From a virus: a stretch of 61,323 nucleotides of DNA. Of the stretch, positions 21,567-58,539 are shown piece by piece (position 1 is the stretch's first letter; the number at the start of each line of letters is the position of its first letter). The position numbers and the translations under genes were made by a program. The stretch spans positions 1 to 61,323 of IMG/VR virus record IMGVR_UViG_3300044714_000062, one strand, 5' to 3'. Under the pieces are notes generated by a model, which saw only the letters and a program-made list of their open reading frames with translations, was not told where the DNA came from and did not search any database.

Positions 21567-21988
21567 CAGCCCACAGCCCCATTCGGGCTCACTTTGAGCT
21601 GGAGCTTCGCCTCTTCACTGGTCCCGGCCTTGTAGTTCGGCCGTGTGCAGCCTGTTAGGACCCCCGTGTACGTTTCGACGTACCCCGTGGATGCCTGTTC
21701 GGGGCCGAGCACTGTGTAGCTCACGGTGACGGCCGCAGCGACGACTACCGCCCGGTCGAGAGCCTTCTTGACCCCAGTCATCGCTTCTGACCAGAGGCGC
21801 TCAACGGTGATCGGCGCACGCTTGGCGACACCCCCCAGTGGGATCTGTTCCTGCATCGCGCCGGGGAACACGACTAGTTCCTCGGCGGTGACGTCGCCGC
21901 CCTCCAGCATGTCCCATACTTCGGAGTCGAGGGAGACGCCAGCGACACTTACGTGGATGGCTACCTGGTCCGAGCGAAATATCCTCAT
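21566..21988 (-). CDS. Tail tube protein
   Basis: 140 residues, right for a myovirus tube subunit. Beta-rich with VAIHVSVAGVSLDSEVWDMLEGGDV at the start and a conserved-looking LQLKVSPNG end. It lies immediately downstream of the sheath gene with a 1-bp overlap, the expected order. Confidence 0.85.
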   Translation of the reverse strand: MRIFRSDQVAIHVSVAGVSLDSEVWDMLEGGDVTAEELVVFPGAMQEQIPLGGVAKRAPITVERLWSEAMTGVKKALDRAVVVAAAVTVSYTVLGPEQASTGYVETYTGVLTGCTRPNYKAGTSEEAKLQLKVSPNGAVG

Positions 21989-23466
21989 TATGCACCCACG
22001 CTTTCTGTGATCGGTGCTGCAACGATGATCTCGCTGAGCGAGTTGACGAACGGCGAGATCCGCACTTTGAGTTCGGCGTTGAGCTGCCCTTCCTGCTCAG
22101 TCGCAGGCGTATTGATCGGTTCCTGCACGTTCGCTACACCGGCTTCAGGGGCCGAGTTGCCGAATAGGGCGTTCTCTTTCCAGTGTTCGGCTATGACGCC
22201 CTGGAGTTCTCCCTGGAGCTTCGAGAGGAGGATGCCGCGCCCGTCGATCGTGCGGCCAAAGAACTTTTCGAGGAGTTCTTCGGACTGCCACACAAGGTGC
22301 ATCCGCTCCCGACCCGCTGACGCCTGCCAGTAAATCTTGTCCGTGGAGGGCAGCAATGCAGTAACGAACCCGTACAAGCACGGGATACCCGATGGTGTCA
22401 CGTACCACGAGTTGATCCCGGCTTCTGAGAGTTCCGTCATCTGCGCCAGCGTGAACGTGTTCGTGAACCCCGTGACGAAGTTGCTGATGCCTCCGGGGCC
22501 ATAGGCGGGAGGAGCCCAGCCGATCCCTATGGGCGCCTGGTTGTCGTTGCCCGTTGCGGCGACCTGCGCGCAGAGAGCGGCGATCACCCCGGACCCTGCG
22601 ATTCTGCGTGTCGTGTTCGCCGTGATGCCGGGCACGATGCACGAGCCGGAGTGGAAAATCATGTACCCCGCGATGTTCGCCGGATAGGATTCTTTCGCGG
22701 TTATCAGGGTGGCAGGGGTCGCGGAGTCCGCGAGGTCGCAGATAGCGAGCCTGTTGTTTTTCGTCGTCTGGCAGTGTTCGCCCATCAGCACATGGATGCC
22801 TTTTTTGACGGGTTCTTTTTCCGTCGCGGGAATCCACACCTGTCCCGGCCCGTAGGTCTTGAGTATCCGTTCGAGGGCTTCTTTCGCCAGGGCTTCGGTG
22901 ATTTCCGTGGCCGGGTTCGTGCCGCCAGTGAGCGCGGCCGCAGCAACAACTTTGAGCGCTTCGCCTTTGCCGGTAGAATATTCCGAACCTTCCGTGACCG
23001 CGATATACTGCGAGGTGACACCCACGAATTCGCTGGCTTTTGTACCTTTGAACGTTTCGAGGACTTCTCCCGCTTCGTTCTGCACGATCAGTTCCGTGGC
23101 GGTCCCTTCAACCTTTAGCTTGTTACCGAGCGTCCCGGTGTACTTCGCTTTCACAACGAGCACTTTCGCGGCACCAGCGGTAGCGAGTTCTTTGCTGGCG
23201 GCAGCAGCCGAGCTTTCTTTCCCGGCGCGCGTGACATATATCTGCGCCATGCCGAGGTTGAACGCAGCCTGTATATCGTCATACATGACGGAACTAGTCG
23301 CGGTGCGTTCCCCGAACACTTCCACGTACCGTGCCAGGCTCTTGACGAGCGTCGGCGTATATGGTCCCGAGTCGGTCAGCCCGATCGGGAAGCCCGTTCC
23401 AGTGGAGATGGAGGTCCCCGCCGACTGGGCCGTCTCACTGGACGACACTTTGATTCCAAACGACAT
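21988..23466 (-). CDS. Contractile tail sheath protein
   Basis: 492 residues. N-terminal strand for inter-subunit linking, then GFPIGLTDSGPYTPTLVKSL and the characteristic Y-D-DIQAAFNLGMAQIYVTR block of sheath proteins, with the conserved C-terminal insertion domain after residue 330 (FTNTFTLAQMTELSEAGIN, KIYWQASAGRERMH). It defines the phage as a myovirus. The sheath contracts to drive the tube through the envelope. Confidence 0.93.
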   Translation of the reverse strand: MSFGIKVSSSETAQSAGTSISTGTGFPIGLTDSGPYTPTLVKSLARYVEVFGERTATSSVMYDDIQAAFNLGMAQIYVTRAGKESSAAAASKELATAGAAKVLVVKAKYTGTLGNKLKVEGTATELIVQNEAGEVLETFKGTKASEFVGVTSQYIAVTEGSEYSTGKGEALKVVAAAALTGGTNPATEITEALAKEALERILKTYGPGQVWIPATEKEPVKKGIHVLMGEHCQTTKNNRLAICDLADSATPATLITAKESYPANIAGYMIFHSGSCIVPGITANTTRRIAGSGVIAALCAQVAATGNDNQAPIGIGWAPPAYGPGGISNFVTGFTNTFTLAQMTELSEAGINSWYVTPSGIPCLYGFVTALLPSTDKIYWQASAGRERMHLVWQSEELLEKFFGRTIDGRGILLSKLQGELQGVIAEHWKENALFGNSAPEAGVANVQEPINTPATEQEGQLNAELKVRISPFVNSLSEIIVAAPITESVGA

Positions 23467-31049: not shown

Positions 31050-31715
31050 CTACTTGAGGAACACGACAGGCGCGGCGGCCTGGAGCGTGAACGTTTCCAG
31101 TTTCGCCGGGGCCGTACCGGTTGCCGAGAGCGCCGTTTTGAAGCACGGCAGCGGGGCACCCGAGAACCACGGGTAGTGTTTCGCCCCGGACGACGCTTTG
31201 GTCAGCGCCGTAGCCGCCGTTTCGATCGTTGCCAGCCCAGGGACGGCCGTGGATGCCACCGCGTACAGTGACACGTACAGCCACCCATGCGGTGCGTTCC
31301 CGGGTTCGACCAGGACGGGTTTTTCGAGTTCCGCTTCATATGTTTCCGTTTTCCCGATTAGCGTTGCACCCGTAGCGTCTTTGCTCTGGGCCAACAGCGC
31401 GGGGAGGGTCGTGTCTTCCCCGGACACCAATGTGGAGAGTCCGGAGTACAGGGCGACGAAAAAGTGTTCGCCGCCTTCCGTGGATGCCGAGGTCGAACGA
31501 ACCCCGATCTTGTTGATTTCCACCCCATACGGAAGGGCGATCGGGACCGTTGTGATTTCAGCCGTTTTCAACGCGGCAGCAGTCGCAACCATCGCGCTAC
31601 CGGGTGCAGCATTTGTCCACATCGGGACATCGCTCTGCGCGATGTTATTCTGCTGCCCCCAAATGCTCCACAGGGGGTTCTGCTGCGGAAACCGTCCGCT
31701 GACGAGATCAGACAT
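31050..31715 (-). CDS. Head decoration protein candidate
   Basis: 221 residues from MSDLVSGRFPQQNPLW at 31715, SD aaggaga. Beta-rich: VPIALPYGVEINKIGVRST, HFFVALYSGLSTL, HGWLYVSLYAVAS, ending with FTLQAAAPVVFLK. Directly downstream (10 bp) of the larger major capsid gene, the usual place for an abundant decoration or fibre-base protein. Confidence 0.6.
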   Translation of the reverse strand: MSDLVSGRFPQQNPLWSIWGQQNNIAQSDVPMWTNAAPGSAMVATAAALKTAEITTVPIALPYGVEINKIGVRSTSASTEGGEHFFVALYSGLSTLVSGEDTTLPALLAQSKDATGATLIGKTETYEAELEKPVLVEPGNAPHGWLYVSLYAVASTAVPGLATIETAATALTKASSGAKHYPWFSGAPLPCFKTALSATGTAPAKLETFTLQAAAPVVFLK

Positions 31716-31725
31716 GTCTTCTCCT

Positions 31726-33480
31726 TTAGAAGGCGTAGCCGCCGAGGGTCGGTTCGGTCGGGGCAGCCGAGAAAGACGTGCCCACCTTGAACGGTTTCCC
31801 GCCAGCGAACTGCAACGACGGGCCATAACGCACCAGCAGCGCAATGTACGCATACACCTGGAACCGGATCTGCAATGTGCCGGACACGACCTCGGGCAGC
31901 ACCCGGGCGCGGAGGTCCGACTCGAAGAACCAGATGTCATCGAACTTCGCTGTCAGGCAGTACGAGAACAGTTCGGAGCCCGATGTGATGAGGGCTTCCA
32001 CTGCTTTGTTCGCTGCCGCGATGATGCTCGCGGAGCTGCCGGTCGCTGTGCTGTTCGCGGACGGCAGGATCGGCGGGATGTTCGCCGACTGGTACACCGA
32101 CGGCCCGAGCGGGGTTTTCAACAGGAACCCCTCAGCTTCCGTGTCCGCCGCGAGCTCACCCGCAATATTGAAGTTCGGGAAGTCCGAGGCGTTGACGAGC
32201 AGCCGTCCCTTTTCCGATTCGGTGTCCGTCGCCGACGCGAGGTACGCGCCGAACGCCGGGTTGATGACATGGTGGACGTTCTGGACGTTGAAGCGTTCCT
32301 TAGCGATATGCGACCAGTTGGCGCCCATCGCAGCGAACATCACCTGCGGTGTGAGAGCCGACGTGGATTCCCTGCGGCCCGCTTTCCATTCGTTCGCCCC
32401 GGCGCCAACCGAGGGGAACAGTCCCCGGATGGTGCCGGCGTTCAGGGTCGTGTAGTTCAGGCCCTGCCCGTAGGACACGTTCTGGTCGAGCTTCAGGTGG
32501 TAGTCCGCCAGCAGGTCTTCCTGGACGACACGGTCGAACACCTGGCCGGGAGACTGCTCGATCAACTGGATCGCTACGTCCTCCTGGCCCGCCAACGTCT
32601 TCACGGCAGCTTCGACGTATTCCGATTCGATGTCCCGTGAGGCGACCCCGGCGTTATCCGCGAGCTGCGGTGCGACTTCCGCGCCGAGCTTGATCTTCGG
32701 AAGTTTGATCGTGTCCGTCCCCAACGGCACCGGCATATTGCGGCACAGGGGGGCAATGACACGCCCAGCACGAAGCGCCGGAATGAAATCGTCCTCCACG
32801 AGCCACAATGGCGGCACGAATTCCCCGCCGGAGCCGGGGGCACGCGACGGGTTGGCGCGCTGTTCAAACGCCCGACGCTCAAACGGAGAGGTCGTCAGAT
32901 CGCCACTGAGGCCGAGACTGGTTCGGAACTCACGCTCCGCGGCCTGGAGCTGGTCTTCCGCCGCGCGCTGTGCTGCTTTCTCGCGCTTCTCGACGGTCTC
33001 CTCCATCATCTTGCCGTGCCGCTCGCGCCGTTCGTCCGCCGCAGCCCAACCGCCGTCCGGCTGGAACCGGCCCCGCAGACTGTTCTCCGAGCCGATCAGG
33101 TCGCGGAAGAAGCTGACCTCGTGCGCGTTGTCCTTGCGATACACCATCGGCTCCGAGATAACTTCCGCGTCGATGGTGTGCGCGTCCGCAACCTTGCGGC
33201 GCTCCGCGCGTTTCTGGAGAGTGTCGATTCGCTCGTTGATCGCTTTGTCCTGGCGATCGAACTCGCGGCTTTCTGTTTTGAACTCTTCCTCGGCGGCGTT
33301 GTAAGCGTCGCGCTCCTCCTCGGAGGGCCGCTCGTCGTCCTTCTCTGCTTTCATCCGCTCGTCGAACTCGACGCGCTCCTTCTCGCGGCTGTCGATCAGC
33401 TCATCCCATTTCGTGCTGATCTCCGCACGCTGGTCTTTGAGCCCATCGAGAACCGTAGGCTCCGCTGTTACTGTAGCCAT
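31726..33480 (-). CDS. Major capsid protein A (HK97 fold) with N-terminal delta domain
   Basis: 584 residues, SD gaaaggaagg. Residues 1-105 are a highly charged coiled coil, a scaffolding delta domain to be cut off by the prohead protease. The mature fold begins near 215: SGGEFVPPLWLVED, PLGTDTIKLPKI, VAIQLIEQSPGQVFDRVVQEDL, and the closing P-domain LPEVVSGTLQIRFQVYAYIALLVRYG. It is a homologue of capsid protein B (35086-36285), sharing the GGEF-PP-W, EQSP and SGTL-RF elements. Confidence 0.9.
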   Translation of the reverse strand: MATVTAEPTVLDGLKDQRAEISTKWDELIDSREKERVEFDERMKAEKDDERPSEEERDAYNAAEEEFKTESREFDRQDKAINERIDTLQKRAERRKVADAHTIDAEVISEPMVYRKDNAHEVSFFRDLIGSENSLRGRFQPDGGWAAADERRERHGKMMEETVEKREKAAQRAAEDQLQAAEREFRTSLGLSGDLTTSPFERRAFEQRANPSRAPGSGGEFVPPLWLVEDDFIPALRAGRVIAPLCRNMPVPLGTDTIKLPKIKLGAEVAPQLADNAGVASRDIESEYVEAAVKTLAGQEDVAIQLIEQSPGQVFDRVVQEDLLADYHLKLDQNVSYGQGLNYTTLNAGTIRGLFPSVGAGANEWKAGRRESTSALTPQVMFAAMGANWSHIAKERFNVQNVHHVINPAFGAYLASATDTESEKGRLLVNASDFPNFNIAGELAADTEAEGFLLKTPLGPSVYQSANIPPILPSANSTATGSSASIIAAANKAVEALITSGSELFSYCLTAKFDDIWFFESDLRARVLPEVVSGTLQIRFQVYAYIALLVRYGPSLQFAGGKPFKVGTSFSAAPTEPTLGGYAF

Positions 33481-33500
33481 GATCCTTCCTTTCGGGAGAT

Positions 33501-33515
33501 GCCCCCGATGGGGGC
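33501..33515 (-). promoter_or_regulatory. Short GC hairpin in the leader of capsid gene A
   Basis: gccccc-gat-gggggc forms a 6-bp GC stem with a 3-nt loop 21 bp upstream of the ATG, just above the SD. It lies in the 125-bp gap that separates the lipoprotein gene from capsid gene A. It may be a processing or stabilising hairpin that sets high capsid expression. Confidence 0.4.
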
Positions 33516-33605
33516 TTGGGTGGTTATCTCCGGGCGGTGCTCGACTTCAGGCGGCGGTGCGCGTGTAACGGCGTCCAACGGCCATCGCGGAGTCCAACGC
33601 GGGTA

Positions 33606-34787
33606 CTATGATTCGGCTTCGACGAGCGATACGCTCGCGTTGTTGTTGTCCCAGACATTGCCCGACCAGATGAAGTTTGCACCCGATGGGCAATAGGACG
33701 GTTCGCTTACGGTCGGGCAGCCCCAGATACTTTGCGAGCCGCCGCGCGGGAAATAGCCATATTCATCGAATCCTTGATTCCATTTGCCGGTGTTCGCGCC
33801 TTTGCAGAGGTAGTCACCCCCCGAGGTTCCTTCGGCACCGAGGCAGCGAGCAAAACGGTTGCCTCTGATGACCGCCGTAGAAGTACCAGCGCCGCTGCTC
33901 TTGACTTTCCCGCACATCGAGAACTGCTCTTTCGCGCCAGCGACCAGGCTTTCTTCGACGGTCATGTGGTCTTTGCACGCCGGTTTCGTTTCTTCGTTGG
34001 TGTTCAGGAAGATGATCGCGACGTTGTTTTCGGGGTTCAGCAGCGTGTCCTTCTTCGCGACCACCGAGGTTTCGTTGGCGTACCAGTCCTCGCGGTGCTG
34101 CGACGCATCCGGGAGATCGGCGTTCGCGAGGATATAGCTTTCCTTCGCTTCCGCTTCGCCCAACAGGCACTCGACGCAGGACCGGAAGACGTCTTTGGTG
34201 ACTTTGAGGTTCGAGTCGCCCCCGCTGAGGTTTTCGCCCTTCACGCCGTCATCGATATATTCGGTGTTCTGGTGAACACCTTCGACCGTGGAGTTTTCCA
34301 GTGTGAAGACCGTCGTGCCGAGGATCTGGATGACCGCCGTCCCGTCTTTCGGGACATCCGCCTTGAGGCAGTCCTTGTTGAACAGCCACCCGCTGCCCTG
34401 ATTTTCCAGGTACACCGAGCCGCCTTCGGGGACCGAAATGTCCTTTTCTTTGACTTCTTTATGGCTCCCCAAGTAGCTTTCGAGTTCCACGAGGGTCATG
34501 CTCGCCAGTTCGGAGCATTTCTTCCCCGTGGCTGCTTCGGCCCCCACGTTTTCAGGGGACGGGAACGCCCCGCCGGCGAGCGGGCCACTCGTACAGCCAG
34601 TGAGGCGTGTGGTGCCTTCCGTTTCGGGGTTCTCGAAGCATCCAGTGTGCGTCGTTTTGACGACGGGGTTACAGACCCCATGGGCGCCCACCACGCACGG
34701 TCCGGGGTTGACTACATCCCCATATCGCTTCCTCGCCGCACACCCCGATAGGCCGACCAGGATGGCTAGCAGTATCACCCAGCGCAT
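33606..34787 (-). CDS. Lipoprotein-like right-handed beta-helix protein inside the capsid block
   Basis: 393 residues. The N-terminus is a bacterial lipoprotein signal: basic start, LLAILVGLSGCA lipobox (Cys 16). The remainder is cysteine-rich with repeated short strands (GGSVYLENQGSGWLFNKDC, AVIQILGTTVFTLENSTVEG, STAVIRGNRFARCLG, NFIWSGNVWDNNN), as in pectate-lyase-type beta helices. It sits between two major capsid genes and would be made late with the virion. A lipid-anchored beta helix could coat the host surface or mask receptors; an alternative is a virion appendage whose N-terminus mimics a lipobox. Confidence 0.6.
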   Translation of the reverse strand: MRWVILLAILVGLSGCAARKRYGDVVNPGPCVVGAHGVCNPVVKTTHTGCFENPETEGTTRLTGCTSGPLAGGAFPSPENVGAEAATGKKCSELASMTLVELESYLGSHKEVKEKDISVPEGGSVYLENQGSGWLFNKDCLKADVPKDGTAVIQILGTTVFTLENSTVEGVHQNTEYIDDGVKGENLSGGDSNLKVTKDVFRSCVECLLGEAEAKESYILANADLPDASQHREDWYANETSVVAKKDTLLNPENNVAIIFLNTNEETKPACKDHMTVEESLVAGAKEQFSMCGKVKSSGAGTSTAVIRGNRFARCLGAEGTSGGDYLCKGANTGKWNQGFDEYGYFPRGGSQSIWGCPTVSEPSYCPSGANFIWSGNVWDNNNASVSLVEAES

Positions 34788-35086
34788 CAGACCTCTACGA
34801 CCGTCAGCGTGCTATTGCTAGAAGCAATCGCAGTAACGGAGCCCGTCCAGACCATGGGGCCTATCATTCCGTTCCAAGAGCCGCCTTCCTTGGCGATCAG
34901 AATCCCTTCTTCTGCTTTAGCCGTTTTACCTAGCCCGAGGTAGATCGCGTTAGAAGAAATATTGACGAACTGGCACCCGTTGCGGTTTTCGTTCGCTTTT
35001 AGGACTTCTTTACTCGCGGATTCTACGACAAAGGTATTCGGGCTCGACGTCGTTACTTCACTAATCCTGTCACCTACTTGGGGCAT
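34787..35086 (-). CDS. Small capsid-associated beta protein
   Basis: 99 residues from MPQVGDRISEV at 35086, overlapping the capsid B stop (TGATG). Core GCQFVNISSNAIYLGLGKTAKAEEGILIAKEGGSW then TLTVVEV resembles small phage structural proteins of the IYLGxG type. Probably a decoration or stabilising protein of capsid B. Confidence 0.6.
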   Translation of the reverse strand: MPQVGDRISEVTTSSPNTFVVESASKEVLKANENRNGCQFVNISSNAIYLGLGKTAKAEEGILIAKEGGSWNGMIGPMVWTGSVTAIASSNSTLTVVEV

Positions 35087-36285
35087 CACTTGAACCCTTC
35101 TACTGGCGTCATGCCAGTACCGACAAGCTTGGAGACACCCGAAGGGTACCGGCCGAGGATCGCCGCAACAGTCCTGCGCAAAGCGAACCGCACTTCCAGG
35201 GTTCCCGAGAGCACATCCGACTCGATCATCGTGACGGGCGCCGAGTCGAACAACACCATGTCCTTCGGGCGCAGCGCGAAGATCGCATCCTGTTCTTTGG
35301 TAGCGCCGTACACGGGCTGGATCGCATCATCCAGGTACACGCCGACGCTCGCAAAGCCCGCATTAGGAAAGTCGGAGTCAGGATAGTCTTCAATACTCAG
35401 CGGCCGGTTCGAGTTATCCTCAGAGGTCGCTAGCCAGAAGAAGCGGCTCGTGTTCACCACAAGCGCTTCCGGTGGTTTGCGGCGTTTCACACCGACCTGG
35501 GCGAGGATTTCGCCGATCTTCGGGACCATCGCGGTCCCCGTGGGCGACCCGCTCGTGTACACAACTTCGTTCGTCCCGGAGAGTTCGATGAGGCCATACC
35601 ATTCTTCGTATTTAGGCCCCAGCCCGTTGATAAACGCTTTCTCCACATCGAAGTCAGACGACTCGAACATGTCTTTGAAGACCACCCAGTCCAGGTGAGC
35701 GCCAATCGGGGACTGCTCCAGGCTCTCGATAGGCCAGTCCGAGATACCCGCAAAGATCACCGCGGGGGACGATGCCGCTTCTGTCGTGAACCCTAAGCTA
35801 TCCACCGGAGAGTTCGGGACCTGTGTACTGACCGTTGAGCCCGTGATGACCCTCGGCAGGTTCACCGACGACACGCCCCTCGGCAGGTCGAACGTCGGGA
35901 TTAGGCGCTGCAATACGGGGCTCGACCGGCGAGCCGTCGCGAACATCTCGTTCACCCACCACGGCGGGGCGAACTCGCCGCCATATCCGATCTTCAAAGA
36001 CGGGTTCACGCGGTACTCGAACTCCGCGCCCTCCAAGCTCCGCGTCTCGTACTTCGGCATCGCGTCCATCTGGCGCCCATGCTGCGCCAGGCGCTCCCGG
36101 GCGGCCGTGTTGCCGCCATAGCGCGGTTCAGCCAGCGCCAGGTCAGACAGGTAGCTGCGGCCGTCGAACTGGTACACCAAGGGCTCCCGGACATGGCGGT
36201 GCGCGTTCGCCTCCGCGGTCTCCGCAAGGGCGCGCTCCTCCTGGGTGGGCTGCTCCTGTAGACGCTCAGCGGTTGTGGTCTCCAT
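35086..36285 (-). CDS. Major capsid protein B (HK97 fold)
   Basis: 399 residues from METTTAERLQEQ at 36285; the longer frame overlaps another gene. N-terminal 80 residues are charged. The fold is seen in YGGEFAPPWWVNEMFATARR, DLPRGVSSVNLPRVITG, DWPIESLEQSPIGAHLDWVVFKDM, and VLSGTLEVRFALRRTVAAILGRYP. Homologous along its length to capsid protein A but lacking the long coiled-coil delta domain. Located directly after the protease and a small zinc protein, the standard major capsid position. Confidence 0.88.
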   Translation of the reverse strand: METTTAERLQEQPTQEERALAETAEANAHRHVREPLVYQFDGRSYLSDLALAEPRYGGNTAARERLAQHGRQMDAMPKYETRSLEGAEFEYRVNPSLKIGYGGEFAPPWWVNEMFATARRSSPVLQRLIPTFDLPRGVSSVNLPRVITGSTVSTQVPNSPVDSLGFTTEAASSPAVIFAGISDWPIESLEQSPIGAHLDWVVFKDMFESSDFDVEKAFINGLGPKYEEWYGLIELSGTNEVVYTSGSPTGTAMVPKIGEILAQVGVKRRKPPEALVVNTSRFFWLATSEDNSNRPLSIEDYPDSDFPNAGFASVGVYLDDAIQPVYGATKEQDAIFALRPKDMVLFDSAPVTMIESDVLSGTLEVRFALRRTVAAILGRYPSGVSKLVGTGMTPVEGFK

Positions 36286-36494
36286 CACTCCCCCTCCGTC
36301 TGGCGTATGCAGAGCATGATCGGCTCGCCATTCCTCGGGCACGGGCACCAGTGGGTCATCGGCGGTTCGCCGTCCTCTAACTCCAGCGGGAAGGTCAGCG
36401 GTTTGAAGGTCAAGCCCTCGTGACCGTCGCCGTGACACCGCGCGCACCCTTTGATGCTCGTTTTGATGGGCTCGGGCAGCTTGATCGCCTCCAT
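36285..36494 (-). CDS. Small zinc-binding protein
   Basis: 69 residues. CARCHGDGHEG (DnaJ-type CxxCxGxG-like) and HWCPCP, enough ligands for one zinc. It is coupled to the protease stop (TGATG) and to capsid B (1-bp overlap). Perhaps an assembly chaperone; compare the CxxCxGxG insert in the protease. Confidence 0.6.
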   Translation of the reverse strand: MEAIKLPEPIKTSIKGCARCHGDGHEGLTFKPLTFPLELEDGEPPMTHWCPCPRNGEPIMLCIRQTEGE

Positions 36495-37681
36495 CACGCG
36501 GCCCTCGCTATCGCTTTCGCCCTACGCGCCCGCTCGGCCTCCACGCCCGTCGGGATCAAGACCGCCAGCGGGTCCGCTGTGAGCGGCGGCGTGGGGTCGG
36601 GCTCGTCGGGGGCGCCAAGAATGTCATCGATTTCGCCCTTGATCGCTTCGAGTTTCTGTTTCTTCGCGTTACTGAGGGCTTTCCCGATGCGGTCCTCGTC
36701 GATCCGCAGCTCGAACGCGCCGGCATCGGAGCGCATCGTGATGGTGCCCGACGTGTCCGCGTTCGCGCCGTGCGTGACCATGCTCACGTCGCCCTTATGG
36801 ATCGTCGCGGCCCGTACGACACGTTTGCGGTCACCGTCCGTCCAATCGTCGTCGGTGGCCTTGAACGCGAAGCTCATTTCCGTCAGGTCGCCGCGTTTCA
36901 TCTTCGGCACCAACGCCTGCACATCCGGGTCGGATGGATCGAGGTCCGCGTCCACTTTCAGGCCACGGGTGTCTTCGCTCAACGTCATCGTGCCCGAGCG
37001 AGTCCTAGCTAGCGGGAGTCCTTCGTGGTTGATGAGCAGCACCACGTCCGGGTCTTCGCCCAAGCAGCGCCGGAACGCCCCCCGTGCGAAGGTCTCCTCG
37101 AACCGGCCGACCATGTACGGGATCTCCGTCGTGCTCGCGTACCCCGAGAACCGCAGCCCACCATCGGACGTTTCGCGGATCTCGACTTCGGCTGTGAAGT
37201 CGCGGCGCTCGACGGTACCCTCGATGCTTTCCCGGACACGCTTACGGCGCTCCAGCTCCGCATCGTCTGCCGAGTTGTGCTGTTGGCCGCCAGCTTCGAC
37301 TTCCCCGGTCCCTTCGCACGTTTCGCAGGTAGCGTCGTCCGTCCCGTCGCCCCCGCATGTCGGGCAGACCTCCATGCCAGGCTTGAGTACGCGCGTCTCG
37401 GCGTCGGTCTCGGCCGCACGCCAGCTTTCGGGGAGGCTTGCTGTCGCCTTCAACGCCTCAGCACGCCCCTTGATGTACGCCTTCACCGCGTCACGCACAG
37501 CATCCGGGGCTCGCCCGAGTGCCTGCACGGCGTTCGAGAGGTCGGCGGTGTCCGCGATCGGGAAGCTGTAATGGCCGTCCGGGTTTTTGTACGCCTTCCC
37601 TTCCTTGCCGAGCGTTTCGACCTGCGCGTCGGTGTACTTGGCGCGTAGCTCTGCCTCTGCGCGTATCTCATCATCGGACAT
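36494..37681 (-). CDS. HK97-type prohead protease with zinc-finger insertion
   Basis: 395 residues from MSDDEIRAEAEL at 37681. Residues 10-90 match a small helical domain (GKAYKNPDGHYSFPIADTADL...RAEAL) seen fused to some phage proteases. Residues 103-128 are a DnaJ-like zinc finger (C106, C109, C119, C122). Residues 160-340 form the S78/U35 protease: YMVGRFEETFARGAF, LLINHEG with H219, and DLTEMSFAF with S270. It would trim scaffold from the two capsid proteins. The zinc finger is not part of the classical HK97 enzyme. Confidence 0.85.
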   Translation of the reverse strand: MSDDEIRAEAELRAKYTDAQVETLGKEGKAYKNPDGHYSFPIADTADLSNAVQALGRAPDAVRDAVKAYIKGRAEALKATASLPESWRAAETDAETRVLKPGMEVCPTCGGDGTDDATCETCEGTGEVEAGGQQHNSADDAELERRKRVRESIEGTVERRDFTAEVEIRETSDGGLRFSGYASTTEIPYMVGRFEETFARGAFRRCLGEDPDVVLLINHEGLPLARTRSGTMTLSEDTRGLKVDADLDPSDPDVQALVPKMKRGDLTEMSFAFKATDDDWTDGDRKRVVRAATIHKGDVSMVTHGANADTSGTITMRSDAGAFELRIDEDRIGKALSNAKKQKLEAIKGEIDDILGAPDEPDPTPPLTADPLAVLIPTGVEAERARRAKAIARAA

Positions 37682-37688
37682 TTGCACC

Positions 37689-39035
37689 TCACTTCGTGGG
37701 TACCGGCACGTTCTTCTTGGGGCCTTTACCGTTCGCCTTCGGCGCTTCAACTTCGCCTTCAGGCGGCACGGCTCCGAATGGCGCGGGCGGCGGGTCGTCT
37801 TCGTGCTTTTCCGCTTCCTTCAATTCCTGCAACGCTTTTTCCAACAGCTCCGTGTTGATCGGCGTGAACACCTTCTTACCTTCACCGTTCGGCAACGGGG
37901 GCATGTCGAAGAACTTGCCGCGGATCTCGTCCGCGATCGTCATACCACCCAGCATCAAAAGGGAACCCGTCTGTGCGCGTTCTAGTTCGCTGCCCCGAAT
38001 GCGATGGCTGATATCGAAGTCAACGAAGTTCCTTGGCGGCAGGCATTCCGTTAGTGCGCGCGCCACCCGGCAGGTGTAGCCCACCAGGCAGTTGGCGACG
38101 AAGGTGCGCTCCTGCTGCTCGATGCCACGCCCAAAGCTCGTGCTGCGTTCGTTCAAGCCGACCATGTGCGGGGGGATACGGAATATGACCCCGCTGATTT
38201 CCTCCGCAGAGTATTTGCGGGCTTCAAGAAGCTGCTGGTCGGCGGGGCTGAGCTGGATCGGGTTGAACTTCGCGCCCTCCGTCAACACCGCCGGCAAACT
38301 CGACTTGGCTGGCCCCTGGTGCGCCGCGTTCCACGACGCCGCCATCTGCTTCGTAGCGGGTTCGCTCAACCCGTTCGGGACTTCGATCACGCCTCGCGGG
38401 TCCGCGCCGTTGGCGTACACGTTCGCTGCGAACACATCCATCACATGGGCGACACCGAACGAATACTTCATCACCTGGATCGGGTTGAGGCCGAGGAGAT
38501 GGCCTGGCATCGTCTGATAGCGGACGTGGAAGACGTCTTCGGTGGGGATGGGTTTCCCCGCGAAGAACCACAAGACCTCGCCGTTCAGCTTCACTTCGGG
38601 CCGCACCACGTCGGGTGAGACGGGCATGATCTGGGTGGGGTACCCCATGTCGTCCCGTTCGATGATCTGCCCGAAGAAGTTGCCTCGCAGGGCCAGCGCC
38701 CAGATGAACATGACGAGCCAGTCCGTGAGGCTGATCGGCTCGTATGGTCGTTCCAGCAGCGGTGGGAGCTTGGTTTCTTTCGCTGTGACCTGGTTAGCGG
38801 GCTTGTCGAGCACCCTGAGCGGCAGGGAGGCCACGGAGTCCGCGAGAAGGGCGCAACAGCCGTACACGGCCGCGATCTGGCTCGCGCTCTCCGTCGTGAC
38901 ATGCAACCCACCAACCGACCCACCAACCGAGCCTGGTGCTGGCGGCGCGGTGCTTCCCCATTCCAAAAAAGGATTGGCGCCGCGTGCCTCAAGTACGTTG
39001 GCGACCGCCCGGCGTACCATCGATGACACGGGCAT
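37689..39035 (-). CDS. Portal protein, HK97 family
   Basis: 448 residues from the ATG at 39035 (SD gaggggg; a GTG lies one codon before). Family pattern: AVYGCCALLADSVASLPLRV, GNFFGQIIER, VFHVRYQTMPGHLLGLNPIQV, GVIEVPNGLSEPATKQMA, IPPHMVGLNERSTSFGRGIEQQ. Forms the dodecameric DNA channel at the capsid vertex. Directly upstream of the protease gene (7-bp gap), downstream of three small genes and the terminase. Confidence 0.93.
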   Translation of the reverse strand: MPVSSMVRRAVANVLEARGANPFLEWGSTAPPAPGSVGGSVGGLHVTTESASQIAAVYGCCALLADSVASLPLRVLDKPANQVTAKETKLPPLLERPYEPISLTDWLVMFIWALALRGNFFGQIIERDDMGYPTQIMPVSPDVVRPEVKLNGEVLWFFAGKPIPTEDVFHVRYQTMPGHLLGLNPIQVMKYSFGVAHVMDVFAANVYANGADPRGVIEVPNGLSEPATKQMAASWNAAHQGPAKSSLPAVLTEGAKFNPIQLSPADQQLLEARKYSAEEISGVIFRIPPHMVGLNERSTSFGRGIEQQERTFVANCLVGYTCRVARALTECLPPRNFVDFDISHRIRGSELERAQTGSLLMLGGMTIADEIRGKFFDMPPLPNGEGKKVFTPINTELLEKALQELKEAEKHEDDPPPAPFGAVPPEGEVEAPKANGKGPKKNVPVPTK

Positions 39036-39077
39036 CACCCCCTCGGGGTAGACTTAGGGGATGGATCAAACGGCCAA

Positions 39078-40448: not shown

Positions 40449-40714
40449 GCAGTTCTCCAATCTACATCCTGCACTGCATCCGCTACGACGACTGCTGGGT
40501 TGCTGGCGTCTTCTCCAGCGAGCAGGCAGCGTCCATTGCTGCTGCGAACCAGCTTGAGCCGAAGGGCCGCGCGTTCGGTGTCTATGTCGAAACGTGGACC
40601 GTTGATGGCGAGCGCACTGCCTCGGTGCATCACCGTTGCCCCGAAGACGAGAGGGCAGAGCCCGAGATCCAGTGGCGCGCCTGGCCTCGATGCACACTCC
40701 CCCCTCAGACGTAG
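40445..40714 (+). CDS. Small hypothetical alpha/beta protein
   Basis: 89 residues from GTG 40445 (GTGA overlap). IYILHCIRYDDCWVAGVFSSEQAASIAAANQ then YVETWTVDGE, a strand-helix-strand layout similar to the one in the protein at 45858. Its end overlaps the terminase end by 10 bp (convergent). Confidence 0.6.
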   Translation: MSSSPIYILHCIRYDDCWVAGVFSSEQAASIAAANQLEPKGRAFGVYVETWTVDGERTASVHHRCPEDERAEPEIQWRAWPRCTLPPQT

Positions 40715-42225
40715 TCGTTCAGGTCGATGACTTTCGCGTCACCCGGCACCGCGAGCGTCTGAGCGCCCCACAACGCCAGCGTGACCGCCACCAACGGCGT
40801 GATATCGACCGTGCTGTCCGTCCGTGACCATGCCCAGCGGTCGCTGAGCTTCAGCTTGATCGCGCCGCGGATCGCCTCTTTCAACTCGGGGGTCCCGAGA
40901 TGCCGCAGCTCGCCGTCTTTGACGGCATCGAAGATGATCCCACAGCCCTGCGCGTGCTCCGCTTTCGAGACCGGGGTGACCTCAATCCGGCGTTTCGCTA
41001 GGTCGGGGAGCAGCGCAGCGCCCTGACCTGACACGTCCACGATTATGGACGCTGGCGCATTCTTCGCAGCCACGGCCTCGATCAGATCAGCGATCCAGTT
41101 CGTGTTCCGCTTGTGCTCCAGCACCTCAACATGGAGCTTTCCATCCATCCGGTGCCCGGCGATCGCTACACAAGACCGGGTGCGGTTCGGGTCAACATCG
41201 AACGCCAAGGCGAACGGCCCCGTCGGTGCGGACTCCGGGTCAGCACACGCATCCCACGCCTCGGGGCTGATCGGCCGTTTAGCCGACTCGTCCGTGTCGG
41301 GCCAATCCCCCGCGCCAAGCCTCTCGACGGCGAACGTGCGGGCGCTCATAGAGCGCTGCTCCATCGCAACATGCTCCACGGAGATCCTGACCCCCAAGGC
41401 GGGGTTAGCTTCCGCCCACCGCTCCACGTCCACGGCCATCTCCGGCGTCACCTGATCGGGCCCCTCCGCATCCACCGAGTGCTCCGCATACACGAGCGAC
41501 GGGTCACCGCCCCGCAGCGCGCGCTCACGCAGCCGTGCGAGGACAATCCCATCCGGGTGGATTTCCTGGTCCACCGCCGAACTCGAATACCAGAGCTGCG
41601 GGTTGCCCGTGATCGACTTCGCCGACACGACGGGCATCAGCGCGCCGTGGAACGCCTGCGGGCAATCGTAGGCCTCGTCTAGGTACACCGTGTCCGCAGA
41701 GAAGCCCCTAGCACCACCCCCGGTGCGTGTACGGAACCTGAGCCGTGGTGCGCGGCCGGTCTTTGGATGCCGGTGGAGCTGGATCGCTTCGCTGCCCTTT
41801 CCGCGATCCATTTTCTTCACGCGCCGGCTGAACTCCGGTGTCCCATCGATCAACGCTTCCAGGCGTAGAAACTGCTCGACGCTGGTGTCCGCCATGTGCG
41901 CCGAGTGGATCTGAAGATCTTCTTCGAGCAAGAAAAGGCCCGTCAACTGCCGGACCTCAAGCTCCCCGTTCTTCCCGTTCTGCCGCGGTGCAACCTCCGC
42001 GACCTCCAACGCAGCCCACCGGCCCTCCAAGGTTTCCCCCAGGCCAGCGATCAGGTGCGTGGACTGCCATTCATCGAGGATCAGCCCAGCCATCTTCCCC
42101 AGGTCGATCGCTTCCAACCCCGTCGAGGACGCGAACGGTGGAGCGTGGAAAATCCGGGCTTGCTGGTGGCCCCTAACTGGCGCGGCGCTTCGCTCTCTGG
42201 CGAGCAATATCGTCGAGCCGGTCAT
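40705..42225 (-). CDS. terL: Terminase large subunit
   Basis: 506 residues from MTGSTILLARER at 42225, SD aaggagg. ATPase: Walker A APRQNGKN (R81, K85) and Walker B TVYLDEA (D183/E184). Nuclease: ALAFDVDPNR (D343, D345), IIVDVSGQG (D397) and a C-terminal acidic TVDIT. It drives DNA packaging and cuts concatemers. The start lies inside the terS gene (53-bp overlap). Whether packaging is cos or headful cannot be read from this sequence. Confidence 0.92.
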   Translation of the reverse strand: MTGSTILLARERSAAPVRGHQQARIFHAPPFASSTGLEAIDLGKMAGLILDEWQSTHLIAGLGETLEGRWAALEVAEVAPRQNGKNGELEVRQLTGLFLLEEDLQIHSAHMADTSVEQFLRLEALIDGTPEFSRRVKKMDRGKGSEAIQLHRHPKTGRAPRLRFRTRTGGGARGFSADTVYLDEAYDCPQAFHGALMPVVSAKSITGNPQLWYSSSAVDQEIHPDGIVLARLRERALRGGDPSLVYAEHSVDAEGPDQVTPEMAVDVERWAEANPALGVRISVEHVAMEQRSMSARTFAVERLGAGDWPDTDESAKRPISPEAWDACADPESAPTGPFALAFDVDPNRTRSCVAIAGHRMDGKLHVEVLEHKRNTNWIADLIEAVAAKNAPASIIVDVSGQGAALLPDLAKRRIEVTPVSKAEHAQGCGIIFDAVKDGELRHLGTPELKEAIRGAIKLKLSDRWAWSRTDSTVDITPLVAVTLALWGAQTLAVPGDAKVIDLNDYV

Positions 42226-42604
42226 CCGGGACCTCCTTCGGCGCCAGCTCTCGCAGCCGATCCAGAGTATCGCGCATCTCCCGCGCGCACATGCTCTTTG
42301 AGGTCGCCGAGTTGTAGGGATGCTCGATTTCGCGGGCGAGCGCCACCGCCGATGCAGCGAGAGCCGAGTCGCCCAGATCCTTGGCGCGCTTACGGACCGC
42401 CGCGACATCGCGTTCAGCCGCATCGATCACGTTCGCCCTCGCCGACATGCTGAACGGCTCCGGGAACATCGGTCGCGCAGCCTCGGCGGACATTTCGATC
42501 AACACCCGGGCGCCTTTGCCAAACACGCTGACGACTCGCGCTCCCTCAGCGTAGAGATCGACCACGGGCGCCGACGGTTTACTCGGCGTCTTGCGAGGGG
42601 CCAT
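42173..42604 (-). CDS. terS: Terminase small subunit candidate
   Basis: 143 residues from MAPRKTPSKPS at 42604. Helical: ARANVIDAAERDVAAVRKRAKDLGDSALAASAVALAREIEHP, resembling phage small terminase-like proteins of actinophages, with a basic C-terminus. Call rests mainly on position between HNH and large terminase. ATG overlaps the HNH stop. Confidence 0.65.
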   Translation of the reverse strand: MAPRKTPSKPSAPVVDLYAEGARVVSVFGKGARVLIEMSAEAARPMFPEPFSMSARANVIDAAERDVAAVRKRAKDLGDSALAASAVALAREIEHPYNSATSKSMCAREMRDTLDRLRELAPKEVPDDRLDDIARQRAKRRAS

Positions 42605-45011: not shown

Positions 45012-45560
45012 TCACGCGAAATCCCGGCGCTTGATCTTTGCCATCCGGCCGTCAGGATGGTGCCAGACGATGCCCTCGAAGCTGCGTCTCTGCACCCACT
45101 CGGCGATCGTCTCGAACGTCAACTCGGTGGGGCGGTCAAGGAGTCGATGCGCCTCGGCGTGCGCGACCAGTACGTGCGCCTTGAAGCCCTCCGGGTTGCT
45201 GTTGATCTTTGGCCCGCACAGCTCGTAGGTGCCGGCCGGTGGGTCTTGGAACTCTGGGAAGCTCAGCGCCTGCGTGTGCCACTTCGCGAACCCGGATTGC
45301 TCGATCGGCTCCCAGCCGACCGTCTTGCCCGTGTTCTCGTCCGTCTCGATGGGCTGGAAGTTCTCGGGTGGCTGCTTGCCGGGCTTGACCTCCCTGCGCG
45401 CCCACCAGCGGTCGCCGTCGAACATGCAACACGTCCCGTCGTACTTGCGAGTGGCGACGCCCTCACCGGCTAGCACCCACTCGCAGCCTGGCGTCACCTC
45501 CGGCAGCAGGTGGCGCATGTCCTCCGAGTCGCGCTTGAACAGCGTCGGTATCTTCCTCAT
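45012..45560 (-). CDS. Phage RNA ligase family protein
   Basis: 182 residues from MRKIPTLFKRD at 45560, SD aaaggag. Nucleotidyltransferase motif I is TRKYDGT with K39 as the adenylated lysine; motif III-like WWARREVK; GTYELCGPKIN; motifs IV and V are FEGIVWHH and MAKIKRRDF. It matches the compact RNA-ligase-1-type proteins of actinophages (DUF5565 style). Such enzymes repair tRNAs cut by host anticodon nucleases. No kinase partner is seen nearby. Confidence 0.82.
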   Translation of the reverse strand: MRKIPTLFKRDSEDMRHLLPEVTPGCEWVLAGEGVATRKYDGTCCMFDGDRWWARREVKPGKQPPENFQPIETDENTGKTVGWEPIEQSGFAKWHTQALSFPEFQDPPAGTYELCGPKINSNPEGFKAHVLVAHAEAHRLLDRPTELTFETIAEWVQRRSFEGIVWHHPDGRMAKIKRRDFA

Positions 45561-45858
45561 CCTGCTCCTTTGTGGTCGATGGCCTGAAGCTTGAACTGGA
45601 GCCATTTCTCGATGAGGCCGAGTAGCGCCGCGACGACCTTCGCCTCGTCGCTGACCGCCTCAACCACCCGGAGCACGTGGAGTAGGTACGGCGTGCGTGC
45701 CACCGGTCATAGCCAGCCGGGTCATTCTGCCGGGCTCCCTGAATCATCGGATCGGCGTTGAAAGCGTCGCAGTGCTTCTCGGCCTGCTCACGGGTCATGT
45801 AGAGCGCATGGAGGCAGGAATCCTCCCATTCGTGTGTCCAGACGCCGTAGACGATCAT
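45463..45858 (-). CDS. Hypothetical protein, C-terminus probably frameshifted
   Basis: 131 residues as read. Residues 1-55 are protein-like (MIVYGVWTHEWEDSCLHAL, MTREQAEKHCDAFNAD), a strand-helix pattern shared with the protein at 40445. After about residue 58 the frame turns into Ser/Arg-rich text and runs into the ligase gene, while the -1 frame (45557-45703) takes over good coding character. A one-base change near 45700 would join the two. Confidence 0.5.
   Translation of the reverse strand: MIVYGVWTHEWEDSCLHALYMTREQAEKHCDAFNADPMIQGARQNDPAGYDRWHARRTYSTCSGWLRRSATRRRSSRRYSASSRNGSSSSFRPSTTKEQDEEDTDAVQARLGGHAPPAAGGDARLRVGASR
45557..45703 (-). CDS. Small helical ORF overlapping a possible frameshift
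   Basis: 48 residues from GTG 45703 with MARTPYLLHVLRVVEAVSDE, then a helix ending GLIEKWLQFKLQAID. Its TGA overlaps the ligase ATG, the usual coupling. The frame lies -1 relative to the gene starting at 45858, so it is either a separate gene or the true C-terminus of that gene. Confidence 0.5.
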   Translation of the reverse strand: MARTPYLLHVLRVVEAVSDEAKVVAALLGLIEKWLQFKLQAIDHKGAG

Positions 45859-57431: not shown

Positions 57432-57724
57432 CAGGTGCCACTCTCGATCGTCTGAGGGCCGGCCGTCCGCGGGTCCCACGAGCCACGCTCGAACTCCGGG
57501 ACACCCATCGCTTCAAAGTCACCCGACGGCGTCGCTTCCTGCGCGCTGACCGTCGCTTGCTGTTTCCGAGAAAGCCCCACGGTGTGCCCCGTCGCACAAC
57601 AGTGGTCGCGTGCCCGACTGATCGCCTGCGGTGCGCTCAACGCCCTCGCGGACCAGTCACAGTCCTGGCATACGGCGCTCGCGTTCCGCGTCTCCCACAG
57701 CGCGACCAGAGTCCGCCTGCTCAT
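57431..57724 (-). CDS. Small zinc-binding early protein
   Basis: 97 residues. ASAVCQDCDWSARALSAPQAISRARDHCCATGHTVGL has the C-x2-C...H-x4-5-H zinc-finger-like layout found in phage proteins related to treble clefs. Stops 1 bp inside the next gene start. Function unknown. Confidence 0.6.
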   Translation of the reverse strand: MSRRTLVALWETRNASAVCQDCDWSARALSAPQAISRARDHCCATGHTVGLSRKQQATVSAQEATPSGDFEAMGVPEFERGSWDPRTAGPQTIESGT

Positions 57725-58539
57725 CGGGACCCTACCTCCAAACGCAACTGCGGTGTCAACCCATCAAGCAGCCGTGTACGCCACCGTCGGGCGTACTCGA
57801 TGCAGTTCGCACAGTTCAAGTGCTGCTCACGGCAGAACGGCAGCGGAGGAGACCTGCGCGCCTGGAAGGACCACGCCATCGAATCGGCGCTCGTCAACAC
57901 GTCCGCGAAGTTCGCCAACCCCCGCACCTTGACCCCAAAAGCGTGGACACTGATCCCGCGCTCGACGATGCACCGGATGATGTCCTCAATCTCCCCCGTC
58001 GCCTGGCGGCGGCAGACCGAGCCGACACCCACAACCGGCTCTTCGCGGAGGTCGATGCCGGCGACGCCATACATGTCGATGCACCGCTCGTAGTCGTCGA
58101 GTGCCCAGCCCTGCAGGACGGGGATGAACGGCAACTCGGGGGCGCGCTCGCGGAGATCGAGGAGGTTCCGGACGGTGCGCTCCTGATGCTCCCGCACACT
58201 CAAGCCGGTCTTGGCGAGCATCACAGGCTCGCACATCCAGTCCATCGGGGCCGCCCAATCCAGACTCCCGATCTCCCGCGCGTACCGCTCGACAGCCTCG
58301 ACGTACTCCTCGGCCGTCGTCTCCCAAGCACCGAACAGTGAGAGCTCGCTGAAGCCACCCGAGTCCAACGCCCACTGGCACTGAGCGGCCGGGAGCGTCT
58401 TGTAGTCCCGCAGCCGCCGGTGACTGACGAACATGGGGCCGACCGATGGGTGGCGCCAAAGCCACCCTGGCCGGTGGGTGCCGAGATAGAACTCAAACTC
58501 GGCCTCGGCCTGCTCACGGGTCAGCACCGGGCGGATCAC
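57721..58539 (-). CDS. dpdA: DpdA-like deazaguanine DNA-modification transglycosylase
   Basis: 272 residues, the length of phage DpdA/TgtA-like proteins. FYLGTHRPGWL, FVSHRRL, QWALDSGGFSEL (D59), DWAAPMDWMCEP (D100), FIPVLQGW, GIDL (D163), VGVGSVCRRQATGEIEDI, HAFGVKVRG, SADSMAWSF, and a zinc site C236/C243/C246 with nearby His. Members replace guanine in DNA by a 7-deazaguanine such as preQ0, which blocks restriction enzymes. No folE or queC/D/E genes are present in this genome, so precursor would have to come from the host. Confidence 0.85.
   Translation of the reverse strand: MIRPVLTREQAEAEFEFYLGTHRPGWLWRHPSVGPMFVSHRRLRDYKTLPAAQCQWALDSGGFSELSLFGAWETTAEEYVEAVERYAREIGSLDWAAPMDWMCEPVMLAKTGLSVREHQERTVRNLLDLRERAPELPFIPVLQGWALDDYERCIDMYGVAGIDLREEPVVGVGSVCRRQATGEIEDIIRCIVERGISVHAFGVKVRGLANFADVLTSADSMAWSFQARRSPPLPFCREQHLNCANCIEYARRWRTRLLDGLTPQLRLEVGSR

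Follow-up and report, generated by a model that had tools for sequence, protein, structure and literature searches.

In nearly all HK97-type phages, the pentamers and hexamers of the head are made from one protein, and the reasons why phage T4 departs from this rule have had to be sought mainly within a single lineage. The viral DNA analysed here (IMG/VR record IMGVR_UViG_3300044714_000062, positions 1 to 61,323; hereafter the window) carries two genes whose products, CapA and CapB, are both predicted to be HK97-fold capsid proteins, which raises the question of what part each of them plays in the head.

The head module and its two capsid genes

Since the record has a 127-bp direct terminal repeat, the window was regarded as complete, with a genome size of about 61.2 kb. 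It contains genes for a tail sheath protein (21988-23466, minus strand; phrog_23, 1.4e-15), a tape measure protein and a baseplate wedge protein and therefore belongs to a myovirus; an integrase gene suggests that the phage is temperate. Genes for a queuine tRNA-ribosyltransferase (57721-58539; phrog_1279, 5e-100) and an RNA ligase (45012-45605; phrog_14301, 7e-53) are also present, both on the minus strand.

The head genes are likewise located on the minus strand. The terminase large subunit (40705-42423; phrog_9, 1.5e-54) and the portal protein (37689-39038; Pfam PF04860, 2.8e-63) are followed by a prohead protease of the S78 family (36494-37750; Pfam PF04586, 5e-28; TIGR01543, 9e-23), the start codon of which is of uncertain position, a small Cys-rich ORF (36285-36497) and CapB (399 amino acids, 35086-36285; phrog_2263, 1.2e-12). 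CapA lies further downstream (584 amino acids, 31726-33480; phrog_2263, 9.8e-27). When the whole genome was scanned in six frames, CapA and CapB were the only HK97-fold capsid genes and the S78 protease was present once; neither a third capsid gene nor a second protease copy was found. A preliminary description of this DNA had listed capsid ORFs of 584 and 399 amino acids served by one protease, and the sequence supports both statements; the two genes are not immediate neighbours, as its term 'tandem' would suggest, since two ORFs (35089-34787 and 34787-33606) separate CapB from CapA. The gap of 208 nt that precedes CapB had raised the suspicion of a frameshift in the protease gene; this was dismissed, as the reading frame is open, the C-terminus is normal and the Cys-rich ORF fills the gap. 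The single S78 protease is expected to cut both capsid proteins.

The first of the two intervening ORFs encodes a protein of 100 amino acids (34787-35089), overlaps the end of CapB and shows a weak match to the internal virion protein family phrog_4363 (0.0017). It is conserved in the close clade only and is possibly a decoration or internal protein. The second, of 393 amino acids (33606-34787), starts with a lipoprotein-type signal sequence (LSGC), has no PHROG, Pfam or TIGR family and no homologue among the loci of the relatives; it is probably unrelated inserted cargo, perhaps with a role in superinfection exclusion. Directly behind CapA lies a gene for a 221-amino acid protein (31050-31715), which has 33% identity to its homologue in contig L137 (E=2e-25). 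Homologues follow CapA in 18 two-capsid loci, some of them in overlapping records, and are found in a few single-capsid loci; L001 and L004 carry two or three copies. The protein has no PHROG match and is a candidate decoration protein.

CapA and CapB share 29% identity over 260 residues (BLASTP, E=3e-20), and this, together with their common match to the 'major head protein' family phrog_2263, bears out the earlier proposal that they are homologous. The motifs on which that proposal was based are present (GGEFVPPLW/GGEFAPPWW, IEQSP/LEQSP, VVQEDL/VVFKDM and SGTLQIRF/SGTLEVRF); the stretch given as LPxGxxxxxLPxI also exists, but is looser than that pattern (VPLGTDTIKLPKI versus LPRGVSSVNLPRV). 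PDB sequences were searched with a CapA profile of 32 rows (CapA and relatives) and a CapB profile of 19 CapB rows. HK97 gp5 was retrieved independently by the CapA profile (E ~4e-8) and the CapB profile (E ~2e-8; 2.4e-8), and neither profile matched any T4 protein among these sequences at E-values up to 1. The AF2 models of both proteins are of moderate confidence (pLDDT 72.7 for CapA and 67.3 for CapB, in which the N-arm and the E-loop are poorly resolved). Foldseek matched the CapA model to HK97 (Head II; 1.7e-11) and the CapB model to phage D3 (4e-12) and the HK97 capsid (7e-12), with a probability of 1.00 to HK97, D3 and other capsids, and both models also match phage major capsid proteins in a viral structure library. 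By homology and predicted fold, CapA and CapB thus classify as HK97-fold capsid proteins, which makes CapB a full capsid protein and no remnant. Pfam PF05065 found no match in the window genome because CapA and CapB are too divergent for that model; capsid identity was settled by PHROGs and by the profiles against PDB sequences.

Distribution and history of the pair

The preliminary description had proposed a search for the same pair in relatives, and both genes were found intact in 23 IMG/VR contigs besides the window, each contig being counted once, which gives 24 contigs in total. This search required alignment queries; a single-sequence CapB query gave nothing. A degraded copy, which would have spoken against two working capsid proteins, was looked for and not found, and no loss of either copy was seen among the contigs that cover both sites. 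Where a gene of the CapA or the CapB clade was seen without the other (L006, L015, L053 and L057), the contig stops short of the place of the partner. The plan of the window, protease-CapB-...-CapA, is common to seven sampled contigs, which include two near-identical pairs, and to the more distant L137. Most other two-capsid contigs have the order portal-CapB-protease-CapA, and CapA is ahead of CapB in L011 and L016. Many further contigs show the order terminase-portal-protease-capsid with a single capsid gene.

Among cultured phages in INPHARED, CapA and CapB each match Mycobacterium phages only (57 records, one place per record), and Bipper, Courthouse, Baka and prophiGD43A-5 each have one capsid gene in their annotated maps. 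Neither CapB alignment retrieved a prophage from the GTDB species genomes. The tails of the two-capsid phages vary: sheath matches were found in the window and in L003, and L055 and L056 encode phrog_290 tail proteins and have no sheath match. As the two-capsid head occurs with both kinds of tail, there must have been either an exchange of modules between heads and tails or a replacement of one tail type.

The duplication assumed in the preliminary description was examined by phylogeny and seems to be lineage-wide and ancient. In a 62-row protein tree, all CapA (support 99/86), all CapB (100/99) and all single-copy proteins (97/89) form three clades, which meet at one node; L020 and L049, which have long branches and no detected CapA partner, were left out as unresolved. 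In a quick 89-row tree, the CapB rows also group together with lower support (79), and L020 and L049 are placed near CapB. Rooted on the single-copy side, the tree fits a single old duplication from which the whole two-capsid lineage descends; rooting on CapB instead would mean that CapB was lost in the single-copy relatives. A separate duplication within the clade of the window was rejected (AU test, p 0.025). The capsid proteins of L020 (5260-6615) and L049 (628-2214) are divergent and lie near CapB on long branches; the L020 gene precedes the protease, like CapB of the wide clade, and no CapA partner of either was detected in the stretches examined.

The distances within the CapA and CapB subtrees mirror each other (r=0.87, 19 genomes, permutation p 0.0002), which points to co-inheritance and is not by itself a sign of physical contact. 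dN/dS values lie between 0.07 and 0.25 across CapA and CapB, and between 0.13 and 0.23 for CapB, which indicates that both copies are under purifying selection and that neither is decaying. In the tree, the two proteins have diverged inside the phrog_2263 group.

Prodomains and predicted cleavage site

CapA is predicted to consist of a prodomain with a long coiled coil (residues 1-208) and a mature form (209-584), CapB of a prodomain without coiled coil (1-92) and a mature form (93-399). The GGEF motif is preceded by 51-104 residues in the CapB rows in which it was found, compared with 156-253 residues in CapA; for the single-copy relatives, the number is mostly 134-224. The preliminary description stated that CapB is without the delta domain. 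This is correct for the N-terminal coiled coil of approximately 100 residues, which is missing from CapB throughout the clade; however, around 92 residues remain, which are homologous to the second half of the CapA prodomain.

The cleavage sites were predicted by alignment to the capsid protein of phage LittleE, whose mature N-terminus was determined by Edman degradation as DLDRNNGTGGYAVP (PMC3706429). According to this alignment, cleavage would take place after R208 in CapA and after R92 in CapB. Without exception, R92 is present in 19 CapB sequences, and R208 is nearly invariant in CapA and its relatives. The arginine is followed by NP in both CapA and CapB, which is absent from the single-copy relatives and would fit co-adaptation of a single protease to the two proteins.

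Proposed roles of CapA and CapB in the head

From these data, we infer that both CapA and CapB are present in the virion, that their prodomains are cleaved and that CapB would be located at the vertices. As to the division of labour, we lean slightly towards a head made of both HK97-fold paralogues, with hexamers of CapA and with CapB at the 11 pentameric vertices, an arrangement that would have converged independently on that of T4 gp23/gp24. CapA, with its long coiled-coil prodomain acting as a built-in scaffold, would form the hexamers of the shell, while CapB, derived from one old duplication, would have lost the scaffold part of its prodomain and become specialised for the 11 pentameric vertices, with about 55 copies per head. 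The single S78 protease would remove both prodomains at the homologous arginine before expansion. Neither sequence contains anything that directly marks a pentamer-forming protein, and the strength of the Shine-Dalgarno sequence, used as a proxy for copy number, does not separate CapA from CapB. On balance, the evidence favours a vertex role for CapB.

A part of this evidence is the asymmetry between the copies. At 27 alignment columns, CapA retains a conserved residue of the single-copy proteins that is lost in CapB, versus eight columns where the reverse is true. In the wide clade, CapA occupies the ancestral place behind the protease with a leader of 102-154 nt. In most loci, the CapB gene directly adjoins that of the protease or overlaps with it; the overlap is 1-4 nt in the nearest relatives, and the window has the Cys-rich ORF between the two genes instead. 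By position, leader, residues and scaffold-type prodomain, CapA appears to be the ancestral-type copy.

The main rival explanation is that CapA and CapB co-assemble, regularly or irregularly, in the same hexamers or pentamers. Both proteins retain the full HK97 fold according to the predictions, and the two-protein encapsulin of Streptomyces lydicus forms mixed, irregularly tiled shells (PMC12407261). The clade-wide loss of the coiled-coil part of the prodomain from CapB and the one-sided changes of CapB, however, suggest a distinct site more than interchangeable subunits, and we regard mixed capsomers as rather improbable.

CapB could also set the head size, give rise to alternative heads or occupy a special site such as a ring around the portal. 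The position of its gene, close up to that of the protease and, within the wide clade, also not far from the portal gene, would suit such a function. Yet neither a satellite nor a second genome size is known, and in the literature searched no full HK97-fold paralogue was found to act in this way, which makes this explanation unlikely. Since both proteins seem to be full HK97-fold capsid proteins, the roles could in principle be reversed, with CapB in the hexamers and CapA at the vertices; it is CapA, though, that resembles the single-copy relatives in residues, position, leader and prodomain, and the one protein of these relatives makes the whole shell, so that a reversal has little to commend it. 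Just as doubtful is the idea that CapB is no lattice protein of the virion but expressed and dispensable, regulatory or restricted to the procapsid. Rod-shaped viruses with two capsid genes of which only one copy is used are mentioned as a cited case in PMC9894754; the dN/dS values of CapB, its retention in all contigs covering both sites and the conserved cleavage arginine speak against a comparable situation here. An assembly artefact or a fusion of two phages is hardly credible and for practical purposes refuted, because the pair, although metagenomic in every instance, recurs in 23 further contigs, most of which come from separate samples, and the window has a 127-bp terminal repeat and a single portal, terminase and protease.

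The proposed hexamer and vertex division resembles that of T4, in which gp24 forms the vertices. gp24 has about 20% identity to gp23 and a prodomain of 10 instead of 65 residues, and probably arose by duplication (PMC9958956). As in T4, two co-inherited paralogous HK97-fold capsid proteins of low identity (about 20% in T4 and 29% here) are encoded in one genome, and the prodomain is shorter in gp24 and in CapB. The T4 protease cuts both capsid proteins, and the same is predicted for the one protease here. CapA and CapB differ from the T4 proteins in belonging to the HK97 gp5/phrog_2263 group, in their fused scaffold-type prodomain and in the S78 protease; the gene order, set against that of T4, is protease-CapB-CapA or CapB-protease-CapA. 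The sequences speak against descent from the T4 pair, since CapA and CapB fall into the HK97 gp5 group; by analogy, the pair would work like gp23/gp24 without being a member of that group.

The preliminary description considered such pairs to be rarely described, and the precedents found are indeed T4 gp23/gp24 and the Ekchuahviridae (PMC9958956, PMC9894754). These tailed viruses of ANME-1 archaea have two divergent HK97-fold capsid genes in a complete genome, each with its own protease, and MCP-2 was probably acquired horizontally; according to the authors, it is unusual for Caudoviricetes to carry divergent capsid genes side by side (PMC9894754). In contrast to these separate proteases, the acquired MCP-2 and the two genomes in which the arrangement is known, the present pair has a single S78 protease in a complete genome, seems to stem from duplication and occurs in 24 contigs. 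The closest cultured relatives of both proteins are those of the Mycobacterium phages of cluster J (Omega, Baka and Courthouse) and of Bipper-like phages, which share the order terminase-portal-protease-capsid but have a single capsid gene at one place per record in all 57 records. In cluster J, the delta domain is cleaved, and Baka has a T=13 head (PMC3706429). Family 2B encapsulins have two HK97-fold proteins per shell, as proposed here, but are cellular compartments without portal, protease and DNA and show mixed irregular tiling (PMC12407261). The 'two major capsid proteins' of JBD30 and SU10 were rejected as precedents, as the respective papers mean two subunits of one protein. In the part of the literature searched, no earlier report of a paralogous pair with one protease in HK97-type phages was found, nor a description of such a duplicated pair across sheath and phrog_290 tails. 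Whether the T4-like hexamer and vertex split arose twice, the second time independently within HK97-type phages, and has lasted there across sheathed and apparently sheathless tails, with a vertex copy that lacks a scaffold and uses that of its partner, we consider about evenly balanced.

If CapB forms the vertices, a second, unrelated lineage with single-copy sisters and many natural variants would turn the difference between T4 and other phages into a testable question: what does a capsid protein gain or lose once pentamers and hexamers are left to different proteins, and is the built-in scaffold needed in both of them? The head would then be a natural two-component shell, the vertices of which could perhaps be studied separately. 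The distribution of the pair also illustrates that collections of cultured phages can lack entire lineages with two capsid genes.
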